IMG/VR virus record: IMGVR_UViG_3300046000_011464
Location: 1 to 56,699 of that record
DNA from: a virus
Strand: one strand, 5' to 3'
DNA: 56,699 nt
Shown here: positions 1-38,740 of the stretch, piece after piece
Layout of the letters: each line of letters begins with the position of its first letter
Numbering within the stretch: the stretch's first letter is position 1
The notes under the pieces: generated by a model
Database searches by the model: none
The model's input: the letters and a program-made list of their open reading frames with translations, nothing else
Told to the model about the DNA's origin: nothing
Translations under genes and position numbers: made by a program

Positions 1-641
1 GGGTTTAATTCAGAACGTAGTTGAGCGATAGTGGACATAGCTTCTTCAAGCTGTTCATTTTCTTCTTCTTCAACTTCATTTTCTTCTTCTTCTTCAGTAC
101 CTTCTCCAAGTTCAGCTAAAAGTTCTTCTAAACTTAGTTCATCGTCTCCAGCCATTTCTCCTTCTTCGCCTGCCATTTCTTCTTCTTCGCCTGCTTCTTC
201 TGAATTACCTAATAGATCAGCTACTACATCTCTGATGATGTCTTTTAAATCATCAACTGTAATTTCACTTACGGTATCGTCGTCTTCAGCTTCGAAAATT
301 TCGTTTTCTTCCATGTAAGGGTTGTCTAGTCCTGGCTCTACTGATCCTTCTTCTTCAGAATAACCATCTTCTTCTTCAAGACCTTCTAGTTCAGCTAGTA
401 ATTCTTCTAATGAAATTTCATCCATTTGATCTTCTGGTGCTGCACCATTTGATTTCTCAAAATTTTCTTCCATGTTTTCATCGTCTCCAGCCATTGCTGC
501 TAACTTAGTAGACATCATTTCTTGCATGCGAGGTGCGAAAGCTTCTTCAAGAGCAAGTTTAGCGTTTGCCATTGCGGTTTCTCTAATAGCTTTAGCTTCA
601 GCGATTGCTTCACTAAAGATTTTAGTGTTTTCGTTTGCCAT
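1..641 (-). CDS. 22: Prohead core scaffold protein, gp22-like (3' end cut by window edge)
   Basis: This reading frame is open from an ATG at 641 to the left edge, giving at least 213 residues. The visible part begins MANENTKIFSEAIAEAKAI, has an Ala/Glu-rich helical N-terminus and then a very acidic middle with repeated LSLEELLAEL-type blocks and Glu runs. A helical segment (QLEEAMSTIAQLRSEL) reaches the edge. T4 gp22 is an acidic coiled-coil scaffold that forms the prohead core and is degraded by gp21. The identity is inferred from composition and from position just downstream of the gp21-like protease; the major capsid gene would be expected next. A late-type motif lies about 100 nt upstream and a terminator separates it from the preceding gene. 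Confidence 0.72.
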   Translation of the reverse strand, partial: MANENTKIFSEAIAEAKAIRETAMANAKLALEEAFAPRMQEMMSTKLAAMAGDDENMEENFEKSNGAAPEDQMDEISLEELLAELEGLEEEDGYSEEEGSVEPGLDNPYMEENEIFEAEDDDTVSEITVDDLKDIIRDVVADLLGNSEEAGEEEEMAGEEGEMAGDDELSLEELLAELGEGTEEEEENEVEEEENEQLEEAMSTIAQLRSELN

Positions 642-835: not shown

Positions 836-1096
836 TTAGTTAAATTCAGTAGAATCTAAACTACCTCCATTCTGTTCAATGACATCTAAAGCCTCTAGTA
901 CAGCATCTGCTAAATCATCTAATGTTGCTTGTTTATATTGTGCTCCTTCAAGTGCTCTGTAAACTACGCTTCTTGGTCCTATTGGTCCATCATTAGTGTC
1001 AAGTAATGCACTTACAATTTTATCCATTGACATTCCTAAGTTTTCCTTAATTAATGCACCTTCAGCAAGGTATTTTTTAAAATCAAAATTTTCCAT
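836..1096 (-). CDS. Small phage protein with possible capsid-targeting leader
   Basis: About 86 residues, acidic, function not recognised. I chose the ATG at 1096 (MENFDFKKYLAEG) rather than 1126, because the longer form would start inside the end of the protease gene and the shorter one begins with a leader seen on other genes here. The leader FDFKKYLAE is followed by G, which fits an (L/I)xE cut site of gp21-type proteases. The rest is helical, with a C-terminal DDLADAVLEALDVIEQ. It sits between protease and scaffold genes, where T4 has small core proteins, so an internal head role is plausible but unproven. Confidence 0.6.
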   Translation of the reverse strand: MENFDFKKYLAEGALIKENLGMSMDKIVSALLDTNDGPIGPRSVVYRALEGAQYKQATLDDLADAVLEALDVIEQNGGSLDSTEFN

Positions 1097-1106
1097 GTTT
1101 GTGTTT

Positions 1107-1724
1107 TTATCTAATACAACATACACCTGATTGAGAACAGATAATGTCTGATATTAGTGTGTTAATTTTTGAGTATTTATTATTGTGTTGTGGTTTGTAT
1201 CCTTCACTTAGACCTGTTGGAGTCATAAAAGCACCTTGTGTTGAAGGAGTAGAAACAAAATCCCAACATAATAGTTCGAAATCATCTTGAACTTCAACTG
1301 TACCTTCCCCTAATGGTTGAACTGAACCCATACCACGAGAAGAAATACCTACAGTAATTTTATTTAAAAATAATTCTTTTAAGATGTTACCTGAAGGTGT
1401 TGGTAATACTTCTACTTTACCCATCAAATCATCTCCGTTCCACCATAATTTTTTGATGTTATGAGATACATTTTTTAAATTAATTACCATTGATTCTGGG
1501 TGATCTAATTCACCTAATGCTCTATTTTCAGATACAGGACCGTCAATGTATCTTTCAACTTCACGTTCTAAAATAGTTTTAGGGTAAACTCTACCGTTTT
1601 GATTTTTAGCATCTGCTCTTTGAATAACACCTTCAACTATTAAGTTTCTATCACCTTTACCCTCAGTTAATACTGTGGATTTAGGTGTGAATAAAGCGTA
1701 TTCTATTAATAATGATTTGCTCAT
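1107..1724 (-). CDS. 21: Prohead protease, gp21-like (peptidase family S80/U9)
   Basis: 205 residues, the expected length. Catalytic candidates are His75 in ALGELDHPES and Ser128/Ser129 in VGISSRGMGS; the conserved C-terminal WDFVSTPS follows at about 154-161. In T4 this enzyme sits in the prohead core and cuts scaffold, capsid and internal proteins after (L/I)xE. It follows the 552-residue gene directly (start at 1724 abuts that stop). The last dozen residues (IICSQSGVCCIR) are Cys-rich and look unlike the rest, so the extreme C-terminus may be variable. Its presence matters for the leader-bearing proteins elsewhere in the window. Confidence 0.9.
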   Translation of the reverse strand: MSKSLLIEYALFTPKSTVLTEGKGDRNLIVEGVIQRADAKNQNGRVYPKTILEREVERYIDGPVSENRALGELDHPESMVINLKNVSHNIKKLWWNGDDLMGKVEVLPTPSGNILKELFLNKITVGISSRGMGSVQPLGEGTVEVQDDFELLCWDFVSTPSTQGAFMTPTGLSEGYKPQHNNKYSKINTLISDIICSQSGVCCIR

Positions 1725-3382
1725 TATACTTGAGTTTTTGTTAAAATTACACCTTTAGTTTTAGCTGCTCTTTCTATATTTGAAGCTTCAGTTGAATCTT
1801 TAGCATATTGAGTATTACCAGCTTTATCTTTTAAAGCAATAGCTTCTTCCATTTCACCTTCTTCATTACCTACTGCTAAAGCGCTATCTAAATAATCTTT
1901 AGATCCTGCTAAATAATTTTTAGCTAAAACAATTTTTGCTTGCCACCAATGAGGAAAATCTACTTCACCCATATTATCTACAGCATCAATCATTTTATAT
2001 AATTCAGTAGCTTGTTTAGCAATTTGATATAACTCACCTTTAATCATACGTGGTTCGTTATCTTGATGACCTAAATCTAGATCTTCGTTAGTAGCTTGTT
2101 TTATAACTTTATCACGAGAACCTTTATATTCTTCTTCAGATGATTCTATTTCACCATCACCATCATAGTCTTTTTTAGCTTTTTTTTTAGCTTTAGCTTC
2201 AGCAACCATATTTAATAAATTTTCAAAAGCTATACCTGTTGATTCAGCATATTTTCTTATTACTGCTTCTTGATCTTCAGTCATTGGGAATGGGTTGTAA
2301 GATTCTTTTAACATCTCAATTTTCCAATTTTTTCCGTATCCAGTACTTTTTTCTAATTTACCTGATTTTTTGTCTCTGTACACAAAATCTCCTTTACCTA
2401 AGTCTTTTTCTATAGTACCAAAGTATTCTTTACCATCATTCTTATTAGTAAGTTTTACTTTTTTACCAATAATATTTTCTTTAATCTTACCTTGAGTACG
2501 TGGGTTTACATCAGCTACTTTACCAGCATATTGACCATGTTCATCTAGCCCCTTATCAGCAATATAGTTTTTAAAATCTTCAACATAGTCGTCTACGTCT
2601 TTAAATTTATCACCTGATTTTTCTAATGAGGTTAAGTATTGTCTAATTTCAGATTCACTACCCACATCATCAAGTGCATTTAATATTGCTCCTCTTGAAA
2701 CAAATCCTCCTTCAAATACTTCTTTAAATTGCTGATCAGCATTAACTACACTAGCTATATCTTGATTTATCATATAACCACCATCAGCAGTTACAAATGA
2801 TCTAGGATCATCTTTCATATGAAACCTAACATTTCTATAAATCTTACCATTTTTAAGTTTTACATTTTTAGGATCTTGTGAATATGCTACACCTTCTCTA
2901 ATTACATTTTTTTTACCTTTACCAATAGCATCCATTGATTTTTTATTAATTTCAACAGTTTTATCACCATCAAATTTAACTCTACCATACAATTTTTCAG
3001 TATAGTATGAAGGATTTTTAGTAAGATTAGCTAGTACTTTTTTCTGTGCTTTAAGTACATTACCTTCATCTAAATCTCCATCTGTTGCTGGTATATCTAT
3101 AATTCCCAATTCATAATCCATACCATTAGCATACTCATATGGGTTAACCATATCAATAGTTTTAGATATAATTTCAACATCTTGTTTTCCTGTAGACTGT
3201 TTAGCTTCTTTATGAGCTTTTTCTGAGATGATAGATTTGTTTTTAAGGATCTTAACTACATCATCAAATGAGTTGGTAGGGGAGATCATAGTAAGGTTTT
3301 GATCTCTACGAGCCTCGTAAAGAAATTTTTGTTTGGTTACCTTACCATCTAAGTATTGAGTGTATAAATCTTGTATTGTCAT
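1724..3382 (-). CDS. Large helical head-region protein with EF-hand-like loop
   Basis: 552 residues, function not established. The N-terminus (MTIQDLYTQYLDGKVTKQ then KFLYEA) ends in a possible FLYE|A cut site. At about 405-417, DYDGDGEIESSEE matches a calcium-binding EF-hand loop (DxDxDGxIxxxE). A later PHWWQAKIVLAKNYL segment resembles a helical module I know from uncharacterised marine T4-like phage proteins. It lies between the portal-side genes and the protease, so an internal or core head protein is likely. A late-type motif sits only 3 nt before its ATG. Confidence 0.65.
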   Translation of the reverse strand: MTIQDLYTQYLDGKVTKQKFLYEARRDQNLTMISPTNSFDDVVKILKNKSIISEKAHKEAKQSTGKQDVEIISKTIDMVNPYEYANGMDYELGIIDIPATDGDLDEGNVLKAQKKVLANLTKNPSYYTEKLYGRVKFDGDKTVEINKKSMDAIGKGKKNVIREGVAYSQDPKNVKLKNGKIYRNVRFHMKDDPRSFVTADGGYMINQDIASVVNADQQFKEVFEGGFVSRGAILNALDDVGSESEIRQYLTSLEKSGDKFKDVDDYVEDFKNYIADKGLDEHGQYAGKVADVNPRTQGKIKENIIGKKVKLTNKNDGKEYFGTIEKDLGKGDFVYRDKKSGKLEKSTGYGKNWKIEMLKESYNPFPMTEDQEAVIRKYAESTGIAFENLLNMVAEAKAKKKAKKDYDGDGEIESSEEEYKGSRDKVIKQATNEDLDLGHQDNEPRMIKGELYQIAKQATELYKMIDAVDNMGEVDFPHWWQAKIVLAKNYLAGSKDYLDSALAVGNEEGEMEEAIALKDKAGNTQYAKDSTEASNIERAAKTKGVILTKTQV

Positions 3383-3395: not shown

Positions 3396-3545
3396 TTATT
3401 TACCTTGTCCTCTGTTTAGTTTTTTATAGTTTTTAGAACTTTTTAATTTAGATGTTTTTGCTTTAGAGTGAACACCTGGTCTAGAAACTTTTGGTTTGTC
3501 TATTTTAGCTGTAGTAGAACTAACCTTTGCTTTTGCTGCTGCCAT
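3396..3545 (-). CDS. Small basic phage protein
   Basis: 49 residues starting MAAAKAKVSSTTAKIDKP, rich in Lys and Ser, ending SKNYKKLNRGQGK. The ATG at 3545 overlaps the stop of the preceding gene by one base (TAATG), typical of coupled translation. Small basic proteins with a VHSKxKTSKLKxSKNYKK...RGQG tail are familiar from T4-like phages next to portal genes; their role is unknown. Its charge suggests nucleic-acid or core binding. Confidence 0.75.
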   Translation of the reverse strand: MAAAKAKVSSTTAKIDKPKVSRPGVHSKAKTSKLKSSKNYKKLNRGQGK

Positions 3546-4228
3546 TACTCAGTTAAATCTTTAATTTTATTATTAATATCTTGGATCTTTTCATTTATTT
3601 TAAACAATGAATTATGAGTACGTTTTAGGTAGTTCATTTGATCAGCATCACCTTTTAATTCAGTTTTCATTCTAGTAGCAAATTCAACTAATTTATTAAT
3701 TTCATCTAATTTATGTTGAATCTGTTTAACACCCATATGCAATTGCTCTTGTGGTGTTCTATTTTTAGATTGTGATTTGAATTGAGAATAACGTACTTCA
3801 TTAAGTGGTTCTTCTTTCTTTTTAGAAGATTTTGTTGGGTCAACTATTTTAAATTTCACTAGTTCAAAATATTTATCTGGGTTAGGTAAATCTTCGTGTC
3901 CTGGTTTAGAGGTCTCGTTTTGTTTTTTAGGTTTTTTGAATGCTTTTGGAGTAGCGTATCCTATTCTTTCTTCAAGATGTTGCCCTTTCCACAAATCCTT
4001 AGCATCAATTCTTTCATTGGGTTTTACAATTCTAAATCCCATTTTTCTATAAACATCACCTGATTTAGGCATTTTTTCAAATCCTGCAGGAGCATTTTTA
4101 TCTTGAGAAGTAGATTTTCTAACAAAAGCTTTAGTTAAATATCCACCAGCACCACCAGTTGCTGAAGTTTCATCGAGAAGTTCAGCTAGATATTTTAGGA
4201 CTAATTCTCTTAGTTTATCTTTATCCAT
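3545..4228 (-). CDS. Head-region protein, possible internal/core protein
   Basis: 227 residues, Lys-rich, function not recognised. It begins MDKDKLRELVLKYLAELLDE, an amphipathic helix ending in LLDE|T that resembles a capsid-targeting leader. A Gly-rich stretch (SATGGAGGYLTKAFVRK) follows, then a charged helical C-terminal half likely to form coiled coil (HKLDEINKLVEFATRMK onward). The start overlaps the upstream gene by 8 nt. The location beside portal and protease supports a prohead-core role. Confidence 0.6.
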   Translation of the reverse strand: MDKDKLRELVLKYLAELLDETSATGGAGGYLTKAFVRKSTSQDKNAPAGFEKMPKSGDVYRKMGFRIVKPNERIDAKDLWKGQHLEERIGYATPKAFKKPKKQNETSKPGHEDLPNPDKYFELVKFKIVDPTKSSKKKEEPLNEVRYSQFKSQSKNRTPQEQLHMGVKQIQHKLDEINKLVEFATRMKTELKGDADQMNYLKRTHNSLFKINEKIQDINNKIKDLTE

Positions 4229-8760: not shown

Positions 8761-9642
8761 TTATACTTCTTCGCCACCCATCAAATCAGCAGCACTTAAT
8801 GATTTTGGTGCTTTGAATACTTTAGCTTCTAGTGATTTTTTCTCGGCAGTTAAAGCTCTTAATTGAGCTACAATAGCAGCTTCTTTATCAGTACCTTTAG
8901 CTGCTTGATAAGCAGGAATTAAAGCTTTCATTTCTTTAGTTATTTGAGCTAATTTTTCAGCAGCAGTACCTAATCTTTTACTACCTTTAGCAGCAGCAAT
9001 AGCTTGTTTTTCAGCAGCCATTTCTTCTTCATCTTCACCATCAATAAATGATGTAGCAACTGGTTTTTCACCTACAGTAGGATCAGTAATTCTTAATTTT
9101 GGTGATTTTTCTTTAGCTGGTTTTTCTGCTTTTACTTTTGGTTCAGCAGCTGGTTTATTTGGGTCTGCTTTTCTACCTCTTTGTCCTAATTCTCTTTCAC
9201 CTTTAGTTAAAGCAATAAATTTATTAAGTTGATTATCAAATAAATCTTCACCATCTAAAGCATTAATTACAGCTGCATCTCCTTTAATTGCTTTTTTGAG
9301 TGCAAGACCTTGCAGTTCAGGATTAGCAGTTATTACAGATTCAATTGAAGATTTTAAATCACCAGCAATTTTAGCCATTTCGTCTAATTGACTTTCATTG
9401 ACCTCAACTGCTTTCTCATTCCCATTTTCACCATCATAGTACCCATCAGTGTAACCATCACCATACCCTTTCATATATTCTGGTGAGTTATTTTCGTCTA
9501 ATGATTCCCCCTCATCAATGAAGTCACTATCATTATAGTAATCTTGCATTTCATCTTCACTTTCAAACCCTTGTTCTTGGTATCCTTCGCTTAATAAAAG
9601 GCTTTTTGCTTTCTTTAAATCAAAATCGATATTAAAATTCAT
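8761..9642 (-). CDS. Lys/Ala/Glu-rich coiled-coil protein with leader, possible internal head protein
   Basis: 293 residues. The N-terminus (MNFNIDFDLKKAKSLLLSEG) ends in a possible LLSE|G cut site. An acidic DYNDSDFIDEGES region follows, then YMKGYGDGYTDGYYDG with repeated Gly-Asp-Tyr. The second half has a Lys/Pro/Ala linker and a coiled-coil tail. No enzyme motif is visible. It is flanked by its own late-type motif and a strong terminator, so it forms a single-gene unit. The position before terminase is where a small terminase might be sought, but nothing supports that call. Confidence 0.6.
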   Translation of the reverse strand: MNFNIDFDLKKAKSLLLSEGYQEQGFESEDEMQDYYNDSDFIDEGESLDENNSPEYMKGYGDGYTDGYYDGENGNEKAVEVNESQLDEMAKIAGDLKSSIESVITANPELQGLALKKAIKGDAAVINALDGEDLFDNQLNKFIALTKGERELGQRGRKADPNKPAAEPKVKAEKPAKEKSPKLRITDPTVGEKPVATSFIDGEDEEEMAAEKQAIAAAKGSKRLGTAAEKLAQITKEMKALIPAYQAAKGTDKEAAIVAQLRALTAEKKSLEAKVFKAPKSLSAADLMGGEEV

Positions 9643-12891: not shown

Positions 12892-14727
12892 TTATGATAC
12901 TTTTACAAATACTGAACTTGATTTTGTTGATGAAGAAGCATAATTTAACATATCTGATATTACTTCATTCTGTCTATTAGGTTCTAATGAATTTATGATA
13001 AATGCTAGTTTTGTTGATAAGTATTTAGAAACTAACCAGTTTAAATCTTTTGATTGTACTAATGCATTAAATTCTTCAGTATTTATGTTTTCAACGATAG
13101 TAGAATATGATTGATAAAAATCATCAATTAATCTTTGATTATTAGATTTAAACCCTTCTTGTACTTCTTTAGCATTAGGTAATAATGGTAAATCATTCAA
13201 TTTTAAAACATCATTAATAGGACCTTGACCTATTTTACCACCAGCTGCTTTTTTACCTTTTATTTCACCTGCAAAATTACCTGCAAAATTAAATGTTCTA
13301 AATGTGATAGATCCATCATCGTAAAGTAAAACTGTATTGTTATTAGTAGGTCTTGAATCGTATCCTTTGTATTGATATGATTGGGTTGAGTCTTTAGCTA
13401 AATTATATATTTTTATTTCTCCACCTCCAGAAAGTTGTTTTAATGAAACACCAATTAATTTTCTATCATTATATAGTTCAACTAACATTCCGTTTAATTC
13501 TTCAAAATTAGTTGGAAATTCAATTCCCAAAATAGATTCATCTACCATCCAAATATCGGCAGGATTCCATTTATCAGAATTTAATGAACTATCTGCTTTT
13601 TTCTTAGCTGCATTAAATGCACTATAAATTGATTTTACAAATGAAGAACCTCTATGTTGTTGTAAGGATTTACTTGGAAATGTTTTTAATAATAAATTTG
13701 CAGTATTAACAAAAGTTGATGTCCATTGTTTTTTATTAGCAACATATTCTATAATAGAATCTAATCCAGCAGTAACATCACTTATAGCATAAGCTGCTGT
13801 TAAGTTTTCAGGAGTTAAATCTTCAGCACTTATAATTTTTCCTAAAATTTTATATGCAATAGAATTTACTACACTTTGAGCTGATTCTTGTATTTCAGTA
13901 TTTTCAGCTCCACCTCCTTGCCCGGCTCCGCTTCCAAATTCAGGTGTTTTTTTAAATGCAGATAATCCATAAGCATTACCTTCAGTATCAATAAATACTT
14001 TACCTTTACCTAATGTTTTATAATCTTTAGATTGTAAAACTTTAATGGCATCAGCAGTTGCTTTAGGGTCTAAAACTACTTGGGTACCATCATTTAATTC
14101 AAAAGGTTCTTGATTTTTTAGTTTATCTAAAAATCTTTCACCTCTATCATCATATTGATCTTTAAATTCAGATTTAGAAGTAAATGGTTTTTCTAATTCG
14201 GCAGGTGATAAACTTGCCTCTTTAATATAAAATTTTAATTTTTTTTTTAATCCCTCTTTTACTTCTTCAGGTGTTGTTTCTTCTGCAGGTGCTTCTTCTG
14301 TATCTTTATCTTGTAAATCAGCTTGATTTTCTTCAGGATTATTAGGACCTGAGCTACCAGGTGGTACTCCTAATTCTAACAATTGAGCAATAGAAGTAAT
14401 AGCAAATTGTTCTTCAGATAAATTTAATAAGTAATATTTTTTACCTGCTATTTTGGCAGTGTATGCTTCAGGACCATATATTAAATAAAATTCTTGCCCA
14501 TTATGAAGTATAACTCTAAATGTAGTTGGTTTTGGAGCTGTAACAAATACACCTGAAATATAATCTCTATAATGTGGTGTCATTAAATCAGACATTGTAG
14601 CATCTAATGAAGGATATTTTTGGAGAATATATTCTAAAGGATCACTTTCAAAAGTCAGAAGTTGAGAATTTTTAAAATCCTCAATTTCTTCTTTAATTAA
14701 TTGTCTTAATATTGATATTTTAGTCAT
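12892..14727 (-). CDS. Large unrecognised protein with capsid-targeting-like leader
   Basis: 611 residues. It begins MTKISILRQLIKEEIEDFKN, an amphipathic helix with LIKE|E. A second similar helix (VKEGLKKKLKFYIKEAS) occurs at about 155-170, after an acidic Glu/Thr/Pro linker. In the second half KWNPADIWMVDES is followed by LIGVSLKQLSGGG; a D...(V)SLK arrangement is compatible with a PD-(D/E)XK-type nuclease core, but this is only a motif-level suggestion. It lies in the block of leader-bearing genes and its transcript ends at the 12835 hairpin. Confidence 0.55.
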   Translation of the reverse strand: MTKISILRQLIKEEIEDFKNSQLLTFESDPLEYILQKYPSLDATMSDLMTPHYRDYISGVFVTAPKPTTFRVILHNGQEFYLIYGPEAYTAKIAGKKYYLLNLSEEQFAITSIAQLLELGVPPGSSGPNNPEENQADLQDKDTEEAPAEETTPEEVKEGLKKKLKFYIKEASLSPAELEKPFTSKSEFKDQYDDRGERFLDKLKNQEPFELNDGTQVVLDPKATADAIKVLQSKDYKTLGKGKVFIDTEGNAYGLSAFKKTPEFGSGAGQGGGAENTEIQESAQSVVNSIAYKILGKIISAEDLTPENLTAAYAISDVTAGLDSIIEYVANKKQWTSTFVNTANLLLKTFPSKSLQQHRGSSFVKSIYSAFNAAKKKADSSLNSDKWNPADIWMVDESILGIEFPTNFEELNGMLVELYNDRKLIGVSLKQLSGGGEIKIYNLAKDSTQSYQYKGYDSRPTNNNTVLLYDDGSITFRTFNFAGNFAGEIKGKKAAGGKIGQGPINDVLKLNDLPLLPNAKEVQEGFKSNNQRLIDDFYQSYSTIVENINTEEFNALVQSKDLNWLVSKYLSTKLAFIINSLEPNRQNEVISDMLNYASSSTKSSSVFVKVS

Positions 14728-14730
14728 AAT

Positions 14731-15075
14731 TTAATCTTGGGTTGAATAAGGTGTTCCTTGTTCTTTAAATCCTATTACCCCTGGAATGTTTCTAATACCA
14801 TCAGTAATGGTTTTAAGAGTAGTTTCAGAATCAAATTTATTTTGTTTAACGTATGGGTAAGGATCAACTTTAATTTCTAATTTACTTCTAAAGTATCTTG
14901 AGGTTGAATCTTGTTCCATCTCTACATTACGTACAACAGTAATAGCAGGTAAGGCTCTAACATCAGAAAGAATATCTTTTTGATTTCTTTTCTCGTCATC
15001 TACAATTAATATTCCTTCTAAGTGAAATATTTTGTCTAGATTACCTTCGTTTAATAATTTACTTATTGATATCAT
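14731..15075 (-). CDS. Small protein with 10-residue leader MISISKLLNE
   Basis: 114 residues, function unrecognised. The first ten residues (MISISKLLNE) match the length and end pattern of T4 internal-protein leaders, with a predicted LLNE|G cut. The remainder (IFHLEGILIVDDEKRNQKD ... RNIPGVIGFKEQGTPYSTQ) looks like a compact alpha/beta fold with strand-rich halves. It is tightly spaced with its neighbours (3 nt to the next gene). Confidence 0.65.
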   Translation of the reverse strand: MISISKLLNEGNLDKIFHLEGILIVDDEKRNQKDILSDVRALPAITVVRNVEMEQDSTSRYFRSKLEIKVDPYPYVKQNKFDSETTLKTITDGIRNIPGVIGFKEQGTPYSTQD

Positions 15076-15077
15076 AA

Positions 15078-15323
15078 TTATTTATTTAAGGGTTCCCACC
15101 AATTAGTACAATATTCGTCAGCAGCATATGGTATAGTATTGGTACCAGCCCAATCATAATAATAATTACTAGTACAAATTTGTTCTTCTTGATTCCACCA
15201 TTTACAATTTGCGCAACATGAACCTCCTTTAGGTACCTGTAATCCTGCTTTATGGTTAGGAGGTAAAACCATTTCACCTGGCCCTCCGTAATTTTCAGTT
15301 AGTATGTTTTGTAGCTTTATCAT
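15078..15323 (-). CDS. Cys-rich small protein, possible metal or Fe-S binder
   Basis: 81 residues from the ATG at 15323 (MIKLQNILTENYGG), which overlaps the upstream stop as ATGA. A start at 15338 is possible but spoils the leader. The core GGSCCANCKWW ... CTSN ... YCTNWWEP carries five Cys with aromatic partners, resembling small high-potential iron-sulfur-like proteins known from phages. A leader cut at ILTE|N would leave this domain intact. Confidence 0.7.
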   Translation of the reverse strand: MIKLQNILTENYGGPGEMVLPPNHKAGLQVPKGGSCCANCKWWNQEEQICTSNYYYDWAGTNTIPYAADEYCTNWWEPLNK

Positions 15324-15715
15324 TTTGTTTTTCCCCAAGTTTTACCTTTACCTTTTCTTTTACATCCAGCAGGAGTAGGTCTACAAGCAGGATATTTAGC
15401 ACGTTTTTCACCTTCTTTTCTACCACAAGCTTTATAACCTCCTTTACCATCAGGTGCATTACAATCTACCCATCCACCTTCTTTACCTTTAGGGCCTGAA
15501 CGTTTAAACCAAGTACGTAATGTTTCTTTTTGTGCTTCAGTTAATTTTTCAAATTTTTCTTTTAAATCTTTCCAAATATCACCTTGACGACATCTAACAA
15601 TTTGACCTGATCTATATGCTGATGATTTTGGGTTTTTGCGTCTTGCAATACGTAAACATCTATCTGCTTTTTTCTCAGATAATATTTGGTTTAATATTTC
15701 AGAAAGTTTTATCAC
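15320..15715 (-). CDS. DUF5872-like small basic Cys protein
   Basis: 131 residues. The leader MIKLSEILNQILSE|K precedes a basic domain: AYRSGQIVRCRQGDIWKDL, then GGWVDCNAPDGKGGYKACG and a tail YPACRPTPAGCKRKGKGK. This arrangement matches DUF5872 as I know it from large viruses and T4-like phages; four or five Cys may bind zinc. Function is unknown; the strong positive charge fits nucleic-acid binding. It overlaps the genes on both sides by 4 nt. Confidence 0.75.
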   Translation of the reverse strand: MIKLSEILNQILSEKKADRCLRIARRKNPKSSAYRSGQIVRCRQGDIWKDLKEKFEKLTEAQKETLRTWFKRSGPKGKEGGWVDCNAPDGKGGYKACGRKEGEKRAKYPACRPTPAGCKRKGKGKTWGKTK

Positions 15716-15960
15716 TTTTTACTAACTATTTTATTATAGTCAGTCATAGATAAAGTTTTTCCATTAGCACTTAAAGCAATAGCTTTTTCAGTTACATCAT
15801 GTAAATCCATATCAGTTTTAGCATCTTCCCTCGCATATTCTAACATACGAATAAATAGTGGAACGTCCAAAATTATTTTGTCTGTTGGATTAGATTGTTT
15901 TTCTAAAAAAACTTGTTCTACTGCTTCTCTAATGAGGAATCTTAAGGTTGATTTATCCAT
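15712..15960 (-). CDS. Small helical protein with leader
   Basis: 82 residues. It begins MDKSTLRFLIREAVEQVFLE|K, an amphipathic helix with two candidate (L/I)xE sites. The remainder is acidic and helical (MLEYAREDAKTDMDLHDVT). No function recognised. It is translationally coupled to the DUF5872-like gene (ATGA overlap). Confidence 0.6.
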   Translation of the reverse strand: MDKSTLRFLIREAVEQVFLEKQSNPTDKIILDVPLFIRMLEYAREDAKTDMDLHDVTEKAIALSANGKTLSMTDYNKIVSKK

Positions 15961-15961
15961 T

Positions 15962-16069
15962 TTATTTATATTTAGCTAAAATTTGTTCGTTATTTTTAAT
16001 AACGTTTTGTCTTTTAACTTGATTTCCGTGGTTAGGTTTTTGTTTGCCTGGTTTTCTTGATTTAGACAT
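15962..16069 (-). CDS. Very small basic phage protein
   Basis: 35 residues, MSKSRKPGKQKPNHGNQVKR then QNVIKNNEQILAKYK. The ATG at 16069 lies inside the end of the upstream gene (overlap 8 nt). Compact size, high Lys content and conservation of the KPGKQKPNHGNQVKR type in related phages support it being real. Function unknown. Confidence 0.65.
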   Translation of the reverse strand: MSKSRKPGKQKPNHGNQVKRQNVIKNNEQILAKYK

Positions 16070-17366
16070 TTTCTTCTAAATTATCAGCGTATTTAGTTAA
16101 TTTATCTTTAGCGTAATCAGCTGCTTGATCTAATTTTCCTTTTACTTTATCTTTTAAAGTATTGTAAACTGCTTTTAATGCTTGATCAGCTTCAGCATCA
16201 TCTTCAATATTTAAAGCAGCTTGGAATGCATTTAAAATATCATCCATTGAAGTTTCTCCTTCAGCTTCAGCTAGTTTTTTAGCTTTAGCAGTAGCAATAG
16301 CATATGTTTTAGAATCTTTTGAAGCACCTTGTTTAGCCATAGCTTTTACAATATCTTCTTTTTTATTTTTTTCAGCTTTAGATAATTTCTTCTCTTGAAG
16401 AACTTCCATTACAGCTTGTTTGATTTGGTCTTTGATTGATTCTTTCATTGGTTTTTTAGGTTGTGATGCTATAAATTGTAAAGCAGATGTTATTAAGTTT
16501 TTCTTTTGTGAATCAGTAATATCAGCTACAGTGATTTTACCTCCATCAACAGTAGTTTTTTCAGCAAAATCTTTTGGTATTAATTTTTTAAATTTAGCTG
16601 CTAATTCAGGTGTATCAAAAGTTTTAATAAAGTTGATTTTTTCTACTTTACCTTGCGTATTTGAAGTTGTTGCAGGTTGATCATCTGATTCTTGTTGAGA
16701 TATGCTATATTGTAGTTTAGCATTACCCATTATAGTTTTAAGTACTTTAGTTAAGTAATCTTTAGTTTCGAATGGATTTTTCTTTTGTGGAAAAACAATT
16801 TTATCACCATCAACTACAAAATCTTTATCTTTAGCCATTACACCACTGTACTTTTTTAAGTTATCAGGTGTTTTCATTGGGTAAAATGTAGATGCGTATT
16901 TACCAAAGAAATCCATTGGTAAATCTTTAGCTTCCAATGTAATTATAAATTCATTAAATGAATCATTATCATTTTCAACTGACCATTCATCAAATTTGCT
17001 TTGTAGTTGTTGTTCTACTTTAGCCCATTCTTGTGGTGCTCTACTTTTAATATCAATTATTTTGGAAAGTCTTTCGTTTTCGTTACTTTGATCCCAAGTT
17101 TCTTTAGCTACTCTACCTTTAGTTGCAGGTACAGATGGGCCAAATATTTTAGAAATAATTTTTGGATCTCTTAAGTTATTAGCATAAATACCGTAATTTT
17201 TAATATCGGATAATGCTGCTAAAGCAGATTCTAAATTAGCAGGTTCAAGTACTAAATCATACAGAGCTTTTTCAAGTCCTGTTTGTTTTTCCTCTTCACC
17301 ACCTTCAAGTTCCTCTTTAATTAACTTATATAGATGAGTTTTTAAAAGTTCAAAATTATTTGTCAT
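16062..17366 (-). CDS. Helical Lys/Glu-rich protein with leader, possible internal protein
   Basis: 434 residues. It starts MTNNFELLKTHLYKLIKEE, with LIKE|E. A similar helix recurs inside (MKESIKDQIKQAVMEVLQE|K, about residue 309), followed by LSKAEKNKKEDIVKAMAKQG. The C-terminus is a long helix (DEADQALKAVYNTLKDK-like). No enzyme motif. Repeated leader-like helices could mean the polypeptide is cut into pieces during head maturation. It overlaps the next gene upstream by 11 nt. Confidence 0.6.
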   Translation of the reverse strand: MTNNFELLKTHLYKLIKEELEGGEEEKQTGLEKALYDLVLEPANLESALAALSDIKNYGIYANNLRDPKIISKIFGPSVPATKGRVAKETWDQSNENERLSKIIDIKSRAPQEWAKVEQQLQSKFDEWSVENDNDSFNEFIITLEAKDLPMDFFGKYASTFYPMKTPDNLKKYSGVMAKDKDFVVDGDKIVFPQKKNPFETKDYLTKVLKTIMGNAKLQYSISQQESDDQPATTSNTQGKVEKINFIKTFDTPELAAKFKKLIPKDFAEKTTVDGGKITVADITDSQKKNLITSALQFIASQPKKPMKESIKDQIKQAVMEVLQEKKLSKAEKNKKEDIVKAMAKQGASKDSKTYAIATAKAKKLAEAEGETSMDDILNAFQAALNIEDDAEADQALKAVYNTLKDKVKGKLDQAADYAKDKLTKYADNLEENV

Positions 17367-17931
17367 CTTTAGTTTCTTTCTTTTCTTTTTTAGGAGATGA
17401 TTTTTCTAATGCTGATTTTAGTTTTTCTAGTACTTGTTCAGCTTTTTCTAATTTAGCAGTATAGTTTGATAATTCACCTCTCATTTCAGGATTATCAATT
17501 AATTTAGCCATTTCAGCTTTTAAATCAGCTACTTGTTTTTCTAAACCACCTACTTTAACTTGACCTTTTTTAACATTCTCTTTTAATTCCAAATCTCTTT
17601 GTTTAAGAGCTTTTTTACCAGCTGCTAAAGCTTGATTAGAATTTAAATAAGCACCTACATATTCATTACCACCAATAATATTGCCATCTAAAAGTTCTTC
17701 TAGAGTTACTGTTTCAATAATACCTCCTTCACTCATATCTTTAGTAGCTTTTTTAACTAAATAAATTTTACCATCTTTAGTTACTTTATCTTCAAACATT
17801 GAACCTGGGGTAGATGTTAATGATTCTTCTGTTTTTTCTTCAGTTTTTCCTTCTTCGGTAACTGAATTTAGTTCTGATAAATAATCAGTAATGCTTTCTT
17901 TAATTATGTTTTTTAATTCTAATCTTTTCAT
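17356..17931 (-). CDS. Coiled-coil protein with leader
   Basis: 191 residues. It starts MKRLELKNIIKESITDYLSE with two possible cut sites (IIKE|S and YLSE|L). The middle (KDGKIYLVKKATKDMSEGG) is strand-rich; the C-terminal 80 residues are a predicted coiled coil ending in a Lys/Glu tail. Function is unknown; it may partner the overlapping 434-residue protein. A late-type motif lies 16 nt upstream. Confidence 0.6.
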   Translation of the reverse strand: MKRLELKNIIKESITDYLSELNSVTEEGKTEEKTEESLTSTPGSMFEDKVTKDGKIYLVKKATKDMSEGGIIETVTLEELLDGNIIGGNEYVGAYLNSNQALAAGKKALKQRDLELKENVKKGQVKVGGLEKQVADLKAEMAKLIDNPEMRGELSNYTAKLEKAEQVLEKLKSALEKSSPKKEKKETKDDK

Positions 17932-17947
17932 GGGTGTTAGTTTTTGA

Positions 17948-17956
17948 TATAAATAT
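17948..17956 (-). promoter_or_regulatory. Late-type promoter motif
   Basis: ATATTTATA on the minus strand, 16 nt before the ATG at 17931, directly after the stop of the next gene upstream. Confidence 0.5.
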
Positions 17957-18526
17957 TTATATTTCTAAGTTTCTTAATCGTTTTATATTGCTTTTAATTG
18001 CTTTTATAACTTCAGGATCAATACTCCCACCATCCCATTTTTCTATATCACCTGCTTCGGTAACATACGTTGTATTTTTTGAATTAAAGTACTCATCGAA
18101 CATTTGTTCGGCATCATCTATAGTAGCATTTTTGTTAGCATTAAGCATTTCTTTTTCATAGGCTTCATACTTACCTGTTACTCTTAATTTACCTTCCATT
18201 TTAATAACACAATCAAAACAGGTGCTATGTATGTTATACATTTTTCTATTTAATGGAAAATCTTTCATGGGTTTAGAACAACATGGGCAATTAAGTGGAA
18301 ATTCTACCATTGCCTTTAGCGCATCATGCTTGGTGATGGTTTGCTTAATACCGTTGTAAATAGTCCAGGTTTTACCGTTTTCTTCCCACATATCACCCTC
18401 AATATGAGTAACTTGTTTTTTACTATAACCGGCTTGAATTCTAGTAGCATTTCCAGTATTACCTGAAATAATATTTCGCATTCTTTGAATGTCGTGTTCC
18501 GAAAATTCTTTATTTAATTGTGACAT
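17957..18526 (-). CDS. Zinc-finger-like phage protein
   Basis: 189 residues. A Cys cluster, CPCC then HSTCFDC some 25 residues later, looks like a four-Cys zinc site. The segment GDMWEENGKTWTIYNGIKQT is shared, as far as I recall, with uncharacterised proteins of marine T4-like phages. It lacks the amphipathic leader of its neighbours. It starts 3 nt after the HAD gene stop. Function unknown. Confidence 0.7.
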   Translation of the reverse strand: MSQLNKEFSEHDIQRMRNIISGNTGNATRIQAGYSKKQVTHIEGDMWEENGKTWTIYNGIKQTITKHDALKAMVEFPLNCPCCSKPMKDFPLNRKMYNIHSTCFDCVIKMEGKLRVTGKYEAYEKEMLNANKNATIDDAEQMFDEYFNSKNTTYVTEAGDIEKWDGGSIDPEVIKAIKSNIKRLRNLEI

Positions 18527-18529
18527 AAC

Positions 18530-19069
18530 TTATATTCCTAATTTTTTTAAATCGTTTATTGCTTGATCTGTGTTTTTATATAAAATTCCAATACCATTTT
18601 TAGATTTCCAATTCATAATGGTATCTTCTCTATCGTCAATTAGTATTTTGTTTGGTCCTGCTAAATCAGATTTTTGTTTAGCTTGTTTAAAAACAATTGG
18701 AGTACCTGGGATGTGATCTTGTACCCATAGTGTTTTTCCTATGCGGCTTGATTCATGGTATGAAGGAGCGGTAAGTAAAGTTGGTTTGTAAGGTTTAATG
18801 TAATCCCATAATTCTTTACCTCCAGGCATCCAAGGAATACCTCTCCAAAATCTTACTCCAATTTCATTATCAATAAGTTTCCAAAACATTTCTGTAGCTT
18901 TATTTTCACCATATTTTTGGGTCATTTCAGCTCTATATTGATCAGGAGACATTCCTGTAAAATGTTCAAAGCGACCTTCAAAATCTGCTAAAACTCCATC
19001 CTGATCGGAGAATATCTGATAGTTTATTTTTGGTTTTTCTTCTTCAAAAAGTTTATTTATTGATATCAT
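18530..19069 (-). CDS. HAD-superfamily phosphatase, 5'(3')-nucleotidase-like, with leader
   Basis: 179 residues. Leader MISINKLFEE|E precedes a HAD domain: nucleophile motif SDQDGVLADF (Asp22, Asp24), a Thr/Ser-bearing LLTAPS strand, and the acidic motif ILIDDREDTIMNWKSKNG near residue 147. The layout matches small deoxyribonucleotidases that dephosphorylate nucleotides. The leader matches T4 Alt-type leaders in length, so this enzyme may be carried in the capsid. It is 4 nt from the upstream fusion gene. Confidence 0.8.
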   Translation of the reverse strand: MISINKLFEEEKPKINYQIFSDQDGVLADFEGRFEHFTGMSPDQYRAEMTQKYGENKATEMFWKLIDNEIGVRFWRGIPWMPGGKELWDYIKPYKPTLLTAPSYHESSRIGKTLWVQDHIPGTPIVFKQAKQKSDLAGPNKILIDDREDTIMNWKSKNGIGILYKNTDQAINDLKKLGI

Positions 19070-19073
19070 TTTT

Positions 19074-20360
19074 TTACCATTTCTTGCAAGACCAATAATT
19101 AGCTTTCCAACGTGGTCCTGGGTTAGCGCAGTTATGTCTTGCTCTATAAGCTGCTCTTCTTTTAGGGTTTTTGGCTTTAATTACCATTCTTTTACCTTTA
19201 GCAGATTTACCACCAAAGCCAAAGTTAACTTTAACTACTTTACCCTTATTATTTTTAACATATACCTTAAATTTCTTAATATCACCTTGCATAATTTTAC
19301 CTAAGGTAACTTTACGACCCTGATATTCAGCTTCAGTTAAGGTTGATTCAGATAACTGTTTAGTATATTCTTTTAGAAAAGAAATAAATTCTTTTAAATC
19401 TTGTTCGTTTTCAACATCATATTCATCTATTTCTTCAGTAGTTTGACTTTCAAATATTTCAGGATTTTCACGTCCAAATTCTCTCATTATTACCCCTGCC
19501 ATTGCATTAGCTTCATTTTCAGTATCAGAACCATCTTCTCCATTTAATTCATTACCATTTAAATTTTGCATATGATGAACTAATTCATGAGCTAATGTTC
19601 TTAAAATATCAGCCATATTTCGATTATGAACTACTATTTTTATTTCTTGCTCTTGTGGGTAATATCCTCCAAAACTTTTATGTTCTTGTGAGTATGTTGG
19701 AGAATTAATAACAAAAACTTTAGGTTTATCCACATTTAATTTATCACAAGTATAATCAACAAATTTATCTATTAATGGAGCTTTTTGTGGGGTAAAGTTT
19801 TCATGTAATATAGGGCCAGGTTTAAATTCGTCTTTAGAGTAAATAGAAAATATTTGTTTAGCATCAATACCTTTAGGTAAAAATGTTTGTATATCTTCTA
19901 AATCTTTATTTCTGATAGCTGTTCTTAAATCCGTAGCATTAAAGTTTTCGGTAGTACCTGCATCAACTATTTGAACATTAGAGTATTTTTCTCTATCTTT
20001 ATCAATAGCAGCATATCTACTTCTTTCTCCTTTACCATAAAGTACAATAAAATCTCTTGATTTGTCTTTTATAATATCAAATACTTCACTTACAGGAGAT
20101 GATTTAGTTGCAACTTTTATTTCAACATTTGAAGGTAATAAATCTTTATATAAAGACCAAACTTCCATTGATTGTTCAGGTGTGAATTCATCTTTAGGCA
20201 CATTAGACATTATTACAATTACTTCATCAGCAATTTCAGAAGCTTTATTGACAACATTAAAATGTCCTTGGTGTGGTGGTTTAAATTTACCAGGATACAA
20301 AGCTACTATTGGAGTAGATTGTTCTAATAGTTCTTGTACAATTTCTTGACCTATATTCAT
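19074..20360 (-). CDS. Three-domain fusion: nucleotidyltransferase, zincin metallopeptidase, RARHNC-YWSC C-terminal domain
   Basis: 428 residues in one frame. Domain 1 (about 15-175) is a cytidylyltransferase-fold enzyme: VALYPGKFKPPHQGHF has the HxGH motif (His30, His33) and NFNATDLRTAIR is the second nucleotide-binding motif, as in NMN or pantetheine adenylyltransferases. Domain 2 (about 195-305) has HELVHH (258-263) followed by ENEANA, the zinc site of gluzincin-like peptidases. Domain 3 (about 345-428) is basic and ends YRARHNC ... YWSCKKW, a module known from T4-like phage head-region proteins. LTE|A just before domain 3 is a candidate gp21 cut site. The start overlaps the preceding kinase stop. 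Confidence 0.8.
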   Translation of the reverse strand: MNIGQEIVQELLEQSTPIVALYPGKFKPPHQGHFNVVNKASEIADEVIVIMSNVPKDEFTPEQSMEVWSLYKDLLPSNVEIKVATKSSPVSEVFDIIKDKSRDFIVLYGKGERSRYAAIDKDREKYSNVQIVDAGTTENFNATDLRTAIRNKDLEDIQTFLPKGIDAKQIFSIYSKDEFKPGPILHENFTPQKAPLIDKFVDYTCDKLNVDKPKVFVINSPTYSQEHKSFGGYYPQEQEIKIVVHNRNMADILRTLAHELVHHMQNLNGNELNGEDGSDTENEANAMAGVIMREFGRENPEIFESQTTEEIDEYDVENEQDLKEFISFLKEYTKQLSESTLTEAEYQGRKVTLGKIMQGDIKKFKVYVKNNKGKVVKVNFGFGGKSAKGKRMVIKAKNPKRRAAYRARHNCANPGPRWKANYWSCKKW

Positions 20361-21112
20361 TAAATAAAATTTTGAATTTTAGACTTTGCAGAACTTATAC
20401 CATCAAATTTAGGTAAAGTTTTTACCATTGATTCGATATCTTTATTTAATTGATCTTTTTCAGCTCTTGATTTAGCCATTTCTTCGGGTGTTTTAGGTTT
20501 TCCTATAGCAGAAGAAGCTTGTGTAAATGGTTTAACTAATTCAGGACTAAATTCTTTATTTGCATTTTCAGAATCATTATTTAATAATATAAAATTATCT
20601 CCAAATGCTTGCTCGTACACACCGATGTTTTTATTAACATCTCTCCAAGTACGTAAAACAATACCAGGCATTAAACTTCTATCACGTTCTTGATTACGTT
20701 CAAGTGAAGTTAAAGGTGAAACATAAATCATTAACATAAATGTTTCGTACCCTAAATCCTCTAATTGTTGTTTTTTCTTTAAAACCGGACCTGAAGCAGC
20801 ACCAGTTCCATCGATAATAATATTATTTTTATCTTCGATGGATTGTGCTAAGGTATCTTGTGTTGTTTTTCGAGCTTGTGCTTGTAATTTAGCTGCTTGT
20901 GATAATTGATCAGGAGTAAAATCTTTTTGTTTTAAACCTATACCACTTGCTTTTAAAAGTTCTTCATAAGTGTCATCTGAATTAATGACTTGATATGATG
21001 AAGGTAATAACTGTTTTGTTAAAGTAGATTTTCCACTACCAGCAGGTCCTGCTAAAAATATAGCTTTAGGTGTACCTTTTATTTCTTTTAATAAAGTAGC
21101 TAATTTAATCAT
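20360..21112 (-). CDS. Zeta-toxin / polynucleotide-kinase-like P-loop kinase with leader
   Basis: 250 residues. Leader MIKLATLLKE|I precedes AIFLAGPAGSGKST (P-loop 22-30) and the substrate acid pair in VINSDDTYEE (46-47). NIIIDGTG and the Arg-rich RNQERDRSLMPG lid fit the AAA_33/zeta group, which phosphorylates either nucleic-acid ends or small metabolites such as UDP-GlcNAc. Which of these applies cannot be told from sequence. With the leader, it could be injected with phage DNA. A late-type motif lies 14 nt upstream. Confidence 0.82.
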   Translation of the reverse strand: MIKLATLLKEIKGTPKAIFLAGPAGSGKSTLTKQLLPSSYQVINSDDTYEELLKASGIGLKQKDFTPDQLSQAAKLQAQARKTTQDTLAQSIEDKNNIIIDGTGAASGPVLKKKQQLEDLGYETFMLMIYVSPLTSLERNQERDRSLMPGIVLRTWRDVNKNIGVYEQAFGDNFILLNNDSENANKEFSPELVKPFTQASSAIGKPKTPEEMAKSRAEKDQLNKDIESMVKTLPKFDGISSAKSKIQNFI

Positions 21113-37846: not shown

Positions 37847-38252
37847 TGTTGAAATTTATTGAAATTTCGTCTTGTATGTTAGTATTAAGTATAGAATATG
37901 AAAAATATACTTGTATTAAATTCTCATCAGGCGACGCGTTTACTGATAAATTATTTAATCTTATTTGGGGGAAATATTCTTGTAAACCAAAAGATATGAT
38001 ATCTTCTATATTTTGAGCAGTACCTTGAGATATTTGTTCAAATAATTGTTCTCTTATACCTGCTCCAAAAATTGGATTCATTATTCTTTCTTTCTTTCCT
38101 GTAAGAAAAAAATTTAAAATATTAGATTTAACAGCATCCTTAGTAGTATAAGTAATATTTAACCCAGTTGGACCATCAAAAGGAATTTGAATCCCAACAC
38201 CTTTACTAGGTGATAGATCTAATGGATTTATATTTACTGTATTATACGCCAT
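37839..38252 (-). CDS. 25: Baseplate wedge protein, gp25-like
   Basis: 137 residues (T4 gp25 is 132). TKDAVKSNILNFFLTGKKER followed by IMNPIFGAG is the conserved core of gp25/W proteins, in which the Glu-Arg and Pro contact gp6 and the sheath. The order gp25-gp6 with overlapping ends is the same in many contractile systems. It starts at 38252, one base before the stop of the preceding gene. Confidence 0.93.
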   Translation of the reverse strand: MAYNTVNINPLDLSPSKGVGIQIPFDGPTGLNITYTTKDAVKSNILNFFLTGKKERIMNPIFGAGIREQLFEQISQGTAQNIEDIISFGLQEYFPQIRLNNLSVNASPDENLIQVYFSYSILNTNIQDEISINFNNG

Positions 38253-38740
38253 TAAATGCTACCTTTTTCTTTTAAAGCACCCATAAATTTAGAAAAATCA
38301 GGTACTACATCAATACTTACATCATTTATATCTCTAACAGGACCTTGGGATTTAATCATTTCATCTACTGTAGCTACTACAGGAATATTAGAATCACCAC
38401 CTATCATTCCAGGTGCACCTCCAGCCCATCCTACTGCTTGAGAGGCATTAAATTCACCTCCATTTAAAGTTCTCCATTCACCTGCTTGAGCAGTTTCATT
38501 TAAGATATCTAACATAGGATTACCTGTAGAAGGAATTGGTTTTCTTTCTTCAGAAATTATATCTGAAAATGATGGTTTATAAGTAGATTCTACTTTAGAA
38601 TAAGGTTGAGTAGATTTATTTTCGGTTAATTTAGGTTTATTAGCTGATTTAACCGCCTCAAGTAAAATGTCTCTCATTTCTTCTTGAATAGCTTTCTTAA
38701 CTTCTTCTCTAATTACTTTTCTGAATGCATCTAATTTCAT
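38252..38740 (-). CDS. Leader-bearing protein in baseplate operon
   Basis: 162 residues. It starts MKLDAFRKVIREEVKKAIQE, an amphipathic helix with VIRE|E, then ILLE|A at about 27-30, closely similar to leaders of the 12.8-18 kb block. The middle is disordered, and the C-terminal half has NPMLDILNETAQAGEWRTL and IPVVATVDEMIKSQGPV. It lies within the tail gene cluster, which makes a head-targeting role odd; the helix might instead dock onto the baseplate hub. A late-type motif is only 3 nt upstream. Confidence 0.6.
   Translation of the reverse strand: MKLDAFRKVIREEVKKAIQEEMRDILLEAVKSANKPKLTENKSTQPYSKVESTYKPSFSDIISEERKPIPSTGNPMLDILNETAQAGEWRTLNGGEFNASQAVGWAGGAPGMIGGDSNIPVVATVDEMIKSQGPVRDINDVSIDVVPDFSKFMGALKEKGSI

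Follow-up and report, generated by a model that had tools for sequence, protein, structure and literature searches.

We analysed a 56,699-base stretch of viral DNA (IMG/VR record IMGVR_UViG_3300046000_011464; hereafter the window), which is the whole contig and probably a fragment of a genome, from a phage that is a T4 relative of a freshwater/marine setting. In a block of 11 minus-strand genes (positions 12892–21112), all except one of the encoded proteins open with a short leader, and it is very likely that these leaders are capsid-targeting propeptides cut by the phage's own gp21-like protease and that the block is a cargo locus; at least some of the cargo probably leaves with the DNA. A preliminary description of this DNA had proposed leaders of the T4 capsid-targeting type processed by such a protease, and the proposal is strongly supported by the T4 spacing of the leaders, their retention in orthologues, the swapping of leaders between proteins, the site within the protease itself and the detection, by mass spectrometry, of two related protein families in the virions of a cyanophage. 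Packaging of the block proteins is well supported, and for the source phage itself is deduced from sequence and analogy. Their injection into the host, for which the ejection of T4 Alt and IPI into the host provides the basis (PMC9026906, PMC3012670), seems reasonably probable.

Every leader named in that description was found in its place on the minus strand. A loose pattern, defined as (L/I)xE at residues 8–24 preceded, at a distance of one helical turn, by a hydrophobic residue, was concentrated in the block (10/11 genes compared with 15/64 outside it; Fisher p=3.4e-5). The same ten genes encode a short amphipathic N-terminal leader of 10–20 residues ending in (L/I)xE, the exception being 17957 (genes are named here by their lower coordinate). 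Over the whole window the loose pattern was found in 25 of 75 genes, compared with 11.1 for shuffled N-termini, 10.5 for internal windows and 8.7 from composition. It was rejected as a genome-wide detector, as in the relative G003 it also matched the gp32-like and exonuclease genes. Since the loose pattern is noisy, we applied an independent spacing pattern derived from T4 and not from the window, namely hydrophobic residues at positions 4, 7 and 8 plus E10, which T4 IPII, IPIII, Alt and gp24 all satisfy. Five of the 75 window genes matched (0.18 expected, with a maximum of three in 2000 shuffles), as did 1 of 226 internal methionines. Four of these five genes lie in the block (14731, 15078, 18530 and 20360), and the fifth, 50310, lies outside it and is probably a chance match.

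Three leader classes were defined from the window and its relatives, A (MIKLxxLLxE, T4-like), B (LRxLIREE type) and C (MENFDxKKYLxE). The T4 spacing was found for class A; classes B and C differ in length, so that for these only (L/I)xE was found. The block genes are as follows, with an arrow marking the predicted cut.

20360–21112, minus strand: Zeta-toxin/AAA_33-like P-loop kinase; class A leader MIKLATLLKE (21083–21112) with the P-loop directly after it.
19074–20360, minus strand: NMNAT/cytidylyltransferase-like domain, HExxH metalloprotease-like segment and C-terminal basic phrog_7595 domain; leader MNIGQEIVQELLE (20322–20360).
18530–19069, minus strand: HAD 5'(3')-deoxyribonucleotidase-like (NT5C-like) enzyme (phrog_2643, 1.9e-21); class A leader MISINKLFEE (19040–19069), for which the T4 spacing places the predicted cut after E10.
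17957–18526, minus strand: conserved CxxC protein, leaderless and used as an internal control (motif in only 1/68 diverged orthologues).
17356–17931, minus strand: acidic helical protein; class B leader MKRLELKNIIKE↓S (17896–17931), kept in 12/13 orthologues.
16062–17366, minus strand: large protein; leader MTNNFELLKTHLYKLIKE↓E (17313–17366), kept in 12/12 orthologues.
15712–15960, minus strand: small protein; class B leader MDKSTLRFLIRE↓A (15925–15960).
15320–15715, minus strand: small, very basic, Cys-containing DUF5872-like protein (pI 10.3); leader VIKLSEILNQILSE↓KK (15674–15715), GTG start.
15078–15323, minus strand: small Cys-rich protein with its ATG start codon at 15323; class A leader MIKLQNILTE↓N (15294–15323), motif kept in 7/7 orthologues.
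14731–15075, minus strand: small protein; class A leader MISISKLLNE↓G (15046–15075); homologous bodies carry class A or B.
12892–14727, minus strand: 611-aa protein; class B leader MTKISILRQLIKE↓E (14689–14727) and a C-terminal phrog_1462 domain (7.9e-51).

The leaders are conserved at the positions that matter in T4. Among 45 distinct N-termini of the kinase family, M1, L4, L/I7, L8 and E10 were fixed and position 2 was nearly always I, whereas positions 5, 6 and 11–14 were free to vary; mutagenesis of T4 IPIII has shown targeting to depend mainly on residues 4 and 7, and processing on residues 8 and 10 (PMC9026906). The motif was kept in 28/29 distant kinase orthologues, and the (L/I)xE of 19074 in 27/33 of its orthologues. 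When N-termini were aligned across related phages, a check that the preliminary description had suggested, the leader motif was retained in 227 of 252 comparisons between diverged orthologues (<70% identical), compared with 351 of 580 for incidental internal (L/I)xE sites. Average leader identity was only 24% (HAD) to 67% in most families.

Leaders and bodies also behaved as separable units. In the ORFs of ~280 related loci, classes A, B and C occurred 290, 161 and 64 times respectively, against 0.1, 0.3 and 0.0 in shuffles, although these counts take in overlapping loci and are not independent events. The leader-bearing bodies fell into at least 17 families, several of which had more than one leader class, and homologous bodies were found with different classes or with no leader at all. 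The 14731 body was preceded by MISISKLLNE or MKLSELKQLIREE, the HAD bodies by MISINKLFEE, MYKLKLTDIYKQLKEE, MKTLIEILKE or no leader, and the DUF5872-like body by four leader types (MIKLSEILNQILSE, MENLNE, MEDKLKKLIKEVLTE and MDNFDLRKYLAESKLDASLSEE). A tree of the DUF5872-like bodies contained at least eight class changes, most of its forks being weakly supported, and the trees of the 14731 and RGEG bodies contained a single class change each among the classified rows. HAD homologues in phages without phrog_207 (OLIVR1 and phiM5) had no such leader, a weak control because most gp21-bearing outgroups are also leaderless.

Three other arrangements were seen among the relatives. At L268:112-3085 (also in L267 and L269), five adjacent unrelated ORFs all open with MDNFDL(R/K)KYLAE and differ by synonymous DNA changes, which looks like a leader cassette that was copied and then held under constraint at the protein level. 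At L100:11768-13753, a cargo fusion begins like a nucleotidyltransferase and ends in an HAD domain, with a single leader (MIDLNTILNE) at its N-terminus. In G003 (L089):15167-16184, two more class A leaders (MIKLSNILKE and MIKLSNLLSE) open adjacent genes just upstream of a gp32-like gene, far from the main block.

The window also encodes the protease, as had been proposed. Its minus-strand gene order is T4-like, running from baseplate and tail through primase and exonuclease, the 12892–21112 block, terminase, portal, two core-like genes, protease and a small gene to the scaffold; a search of sequenced phages gave no close DNA relative of the window. The relevant genes outside the block are listed below.

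1–641, minus strand: start of the scaffold (gp22-like) gene, truncated by the window end and rich in (L/I)xE.
836–1096, minus strand: class C leader gene, MENFDFKKYLAE↓G; the same leader is found on unrelated bodies elsewhere.
1107–1724, minus strand: gp21-type prohead protease (phrog_207, 1.2e-54), with its own site VLTE↓GKGD ahead of the core.
1724–3382, minus strand: putative prohead core protein by gene order, ...KQKFLYE↓A, kept in 6/6 orthologues.
3545–4228, minus strand: putative prohead core protein, placed as 67/68 are in T4, with a leader-like helix; motif kept in 6/10.
8761–9642, minus strand: class C-like leader gene, MNFNIDFDLKKAKSLLLSE↓G; motif kept in 3/5 distant orthologues.
38252–38740, minus strand: baseplate-cluster protein, conserved in G003 and immuto, that opens with a class B-like helix.

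A gp21-family protease is therefore present in the same genome as the leaders, and both 1107 and 836 fit the leader pattern well. In the protease orthologues, (L/I)xE preceded the core in 69/69, the next residue being mostly A, N, G or S. A similar leader, LLE↓(T/S/G), opens the capsid proteins of the group, for example MSNLVNSLLE↓TANPY. The protease was present in 11 of 13 long contigs, a sample that was reached via the cargo genes and not via the protease.

A cultured relative, Flavobacterium phage vB_FspM_immuto, has a block at the same place with different leaders. Its predicted cuts include one after MKKVMGNLADLLLEE, at the E of (L/I)xE, leaving SDFMPKYQ..., and its capsid protein starts MELNQLFE↓GANN. 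Virion data come from cyanophages. The S-SCSM1 report gives a virion proteome determined by mass spectrometry (PMC9602691), and in an S-SCSM1 block resembling that of the window, the annotation marks genes 89 to 93 as encoding virion proteins. SSCSM1_90 is a homologue of 12892 (30% over 381 aa, 4e-39, with phrog_1462 in both), and gene 91 encodes an NMNAT that shares PHROG families with 19074 and starts MKSFLQFLKE↓AAES. An N-terminus of this kind (F4, F7, L/I8 and E10) was seen in five other cyanophage NMNATs, which fit MK(K/N/S)F..F(L/I).E↓A or come near it, and the orthologous cluster of NMNAT, T4-GC190, was detected in S-SM1 virions (PMC3037559).

The kinase and HAD identities assigned by the preliminary description proved correct. 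By its sequence, 20360 is a kinase of the Zeta_toxin/AAA_33 family: it matched the Pfam profiles AAA_33 and Zeta_toxin (1.5e-12) at 47.9 and 48.5 bits, above the curated cut-offs of 22.3 and 27, with alignments beginning at residues 18 and 13, and it showed a weak match to PDB 1gvn. The HAD assignment of 18530 was borne out by the phrog_2643 profile. For 19074, Pfam CTP_transf_like matched from residue 21 and PHROG matches were obtained to phrog_3041, 395 and 7595. The protein may contain an internal cut site, LTE↓AEYQG, ahead of its phrog_7595 domain; in its relatives the residues preceding AEY/AKY were variable, many of them fitting (L/I)xE. The phrog_7595 domain itself (...RARHNC...YWSC.KW), ~100 aa at the C-terminal end of the 19074–20360 product, recurs alone or fused at L102, L103, L104, L121, L124, L276 and HTVC008M 109011-109412, preceded by E-AEYxGRKV or a variant, a candidate internal site for the prohead protease. 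The 15320 protein matched Pfam DUF5872 at 1.1e-4 and 23.1 bits, under the gathering cut-off of 27.5, and is accordingly called DUF5872-like only.

The phrog_1462 domain of 12892 (window positions 12892–14235) has invariant KWNP.DIW and G.SLK motifs. Its AlphaFold model (pLDDT 91) gave no PDB match at E<=0.001 in Foldseek, and the proteins it matched significantly were all uncharacterised ones from phages, for the most part cyanophages. An assignment as a PD-(D/E)XK nuclease, considered from the conserved DKWNPADIW ... GVSLK, was dropped, as Pfam and PDB profiles were unconvincing and Foldseek found no solved fold. The earlier suggestion of several basic proteins in the block did not hold: five of the ten leader-bearing proteins have a mature pI below 5.5, a sixth is at 5.5, and only 15320 is strongly basic.

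We propose that the amphipathic-helix leader would dock each protein onto the prohead core, and that the gp21-type protease would cleave behind the E of (L/I)-x-E as the head matures, so that the mature protein is released within the shell. DNA would then be packaged around these proteins, and at least some would exit with it at infection. The block between primase/exonuclease and terminase would be the cargo locus, holding the P-loop kinase, the HAD nucleotidase, the NMNAT-like enzyme with its protease-like segment, the basic DUF5872-like protein and several others, and new cargo may be gained by acquiring or exchanging a leader. The phage thus probably ships a toolkit of some ten unrelated proteins, including several enzymes, into the host along with its DNA.

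Several observations weigh against this proposal. No published proteomics was found for the source phage, immuto or near relatives. What links 19074 to the S-SCSM1 NMNAT is a set of profile families that both match, together with a BLAST hit that is weak (1.9e-4), and SSCSM1_92 and SSCSM1_93 were detected in virions yet have no obvious leader. The authors of the S-CREM2 study could not exclude NMNAT as a carry-over contaminant (PMC10665884), although in our view the T4-type targeting leader on cyanophage NMNATs makes genuine packaging more likely. The leaders of the pelagiphage HTVC008M fit less well, and 2 of the 13 long contigs show no protease, both of which may be incomplete. The class B-like helix of 38252 stands on a protein of the baseplate cluster, which makes a leader-like helix uncertain evidence there. 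Finally, (L/I)xE is short and common, and the loose pattern fits about 18–23% of genes outside the block.

The alternative that survives best, though we regard it as unlikely, is that the block encodes prohead core proteins, docked by their leaders into the assembly core, where they help to shape the head and are then degraded or retained without delivery to the host. Genes 1724, 3545 and 836 lie on either side of the protease gene, in or close to the position that 67/68 occupy in T4 (T4 order 20-67-68-21-22-23), and 16062 and 17356 are mildly acidic with additional (L/I)xE sites. We take 1724 and 3545, located where T4 has 67/68, to be probably core proteins; these two and 38252, which had been counted with the injected cargo, are more likely core or tail proteins. 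For the block itself, the kinase, the nucleotidase and the NMNAT-like enzyme are recognisable enzymes with no evident scaffold role, and relatives of two block proteins occur in mature cyanophage virions, both of which favour cargo.

It is much less plausible that the N-terminal helices dock onto some other partner, such as the tail, the membrane, RNA polymerase or a different complex, with (L/I)xE arising secondarily from the composition of the helix. The helix on 38252 would suit such docking, but conservation is no weaker at E10 and position 8 than at the targeting positions, the pattern recurs in the capsid protein and at the site within the protease, and the virion-detected NMNATs bear T4-type leaders. 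Chance can be set aside: although AT-rich phage genes often encode a helical N-terminus and the loose pattern is frequent outside the block, the stricter classes lie hundreds-fold above shuffles, the T4 spacing exceeds its expectation and conservation is confined to a few positions.

If these leaders do act in targeting, sequence would suffice to predict what many uncultured T4-like phages carry as payload, whereas injected phage proteins are otherwise hard to learn of without a cultured virus and proteomics. The capsid-targeting reading would also account for the repeated finding of NMNAT-like enzymes in cyanophage virions, where contamination could not be excluded by the authors, and immuto makes it directly testable. 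Whether an exchangeable packaging code is general in T4-superfamily phages of aquatic bacteria we judge to be evenly balanced; such a code would have at least three leader classes, perhaps each docking a different core protein and swapped among unrelated genes, with at least ten enzymes and other proteins loaded and the payload of uncultured phages readable from N-termini. In the literature searched, we found no description of capsid-targeting leaders in cyanophages or Bacteroidota phages.

The giant phages SPN3US and phiKZ resemble the present system in having many head proteins whose propeptides a prohead protease removes by cutting after E, and in delivering these proteins to the host; however, their propeptides are mostly far longer (>100 residues for gp50, gp53 and gp54; 20 for gp45) and they carry a virion RNA polymerase. 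The T4-like cyanophages S-SCSM1, S-SM1 and S-CREM2 also share features with it, with virion-detected phrog_1462 protein and NMNAT in a similar S-SCSM1 block and the examined NMNATs carrying MKxFxxF(L/I)xE↓A or close to it. In contrast, window leaders begin MI(K/S)(L/I) or LRxLIRE, no HAD or zeta-like kinase is annotated in the S-SCSM1 block, and the authors mention no targeting leader in the parts of their reports available. The capsid-targeting sequences of T4 (IPI/II/III and Alt, the gp24 propeptide and gp21 processing) are alike in their ~10 residues, hydrophobic positions 4, 7 and 8, E10 and (L/I)-x-E specificity, with a gp21-family protease and similar leaders ahead of unrelated bodies; Alt (MELITELFDE), gp24 (MAKINELLRE) and IPII/IPIII (MKTYQEFIAE) share the spacing. 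T4 has four cargo genes, Alt and three internal proteins, whereas about ten lie in one block here, three leader classes are exchanged among bodies and the cargo comprises a kinase, a nucleotidase, an NMNAT-like and a DUF5872-like protein. The description of the cargo as unusually numerous stands against T4, and holds less well against giant phages (~50 head proteins) or cyanophages. It has already been suggested that the capsid-targeting sequence lets T4-like phages package various proteins (PMC9026906). The leader system itself is known from T4, and what is new is the number and kind of cargo, the swapping of leaders and the reach of the system through aquatic T4-like phages.

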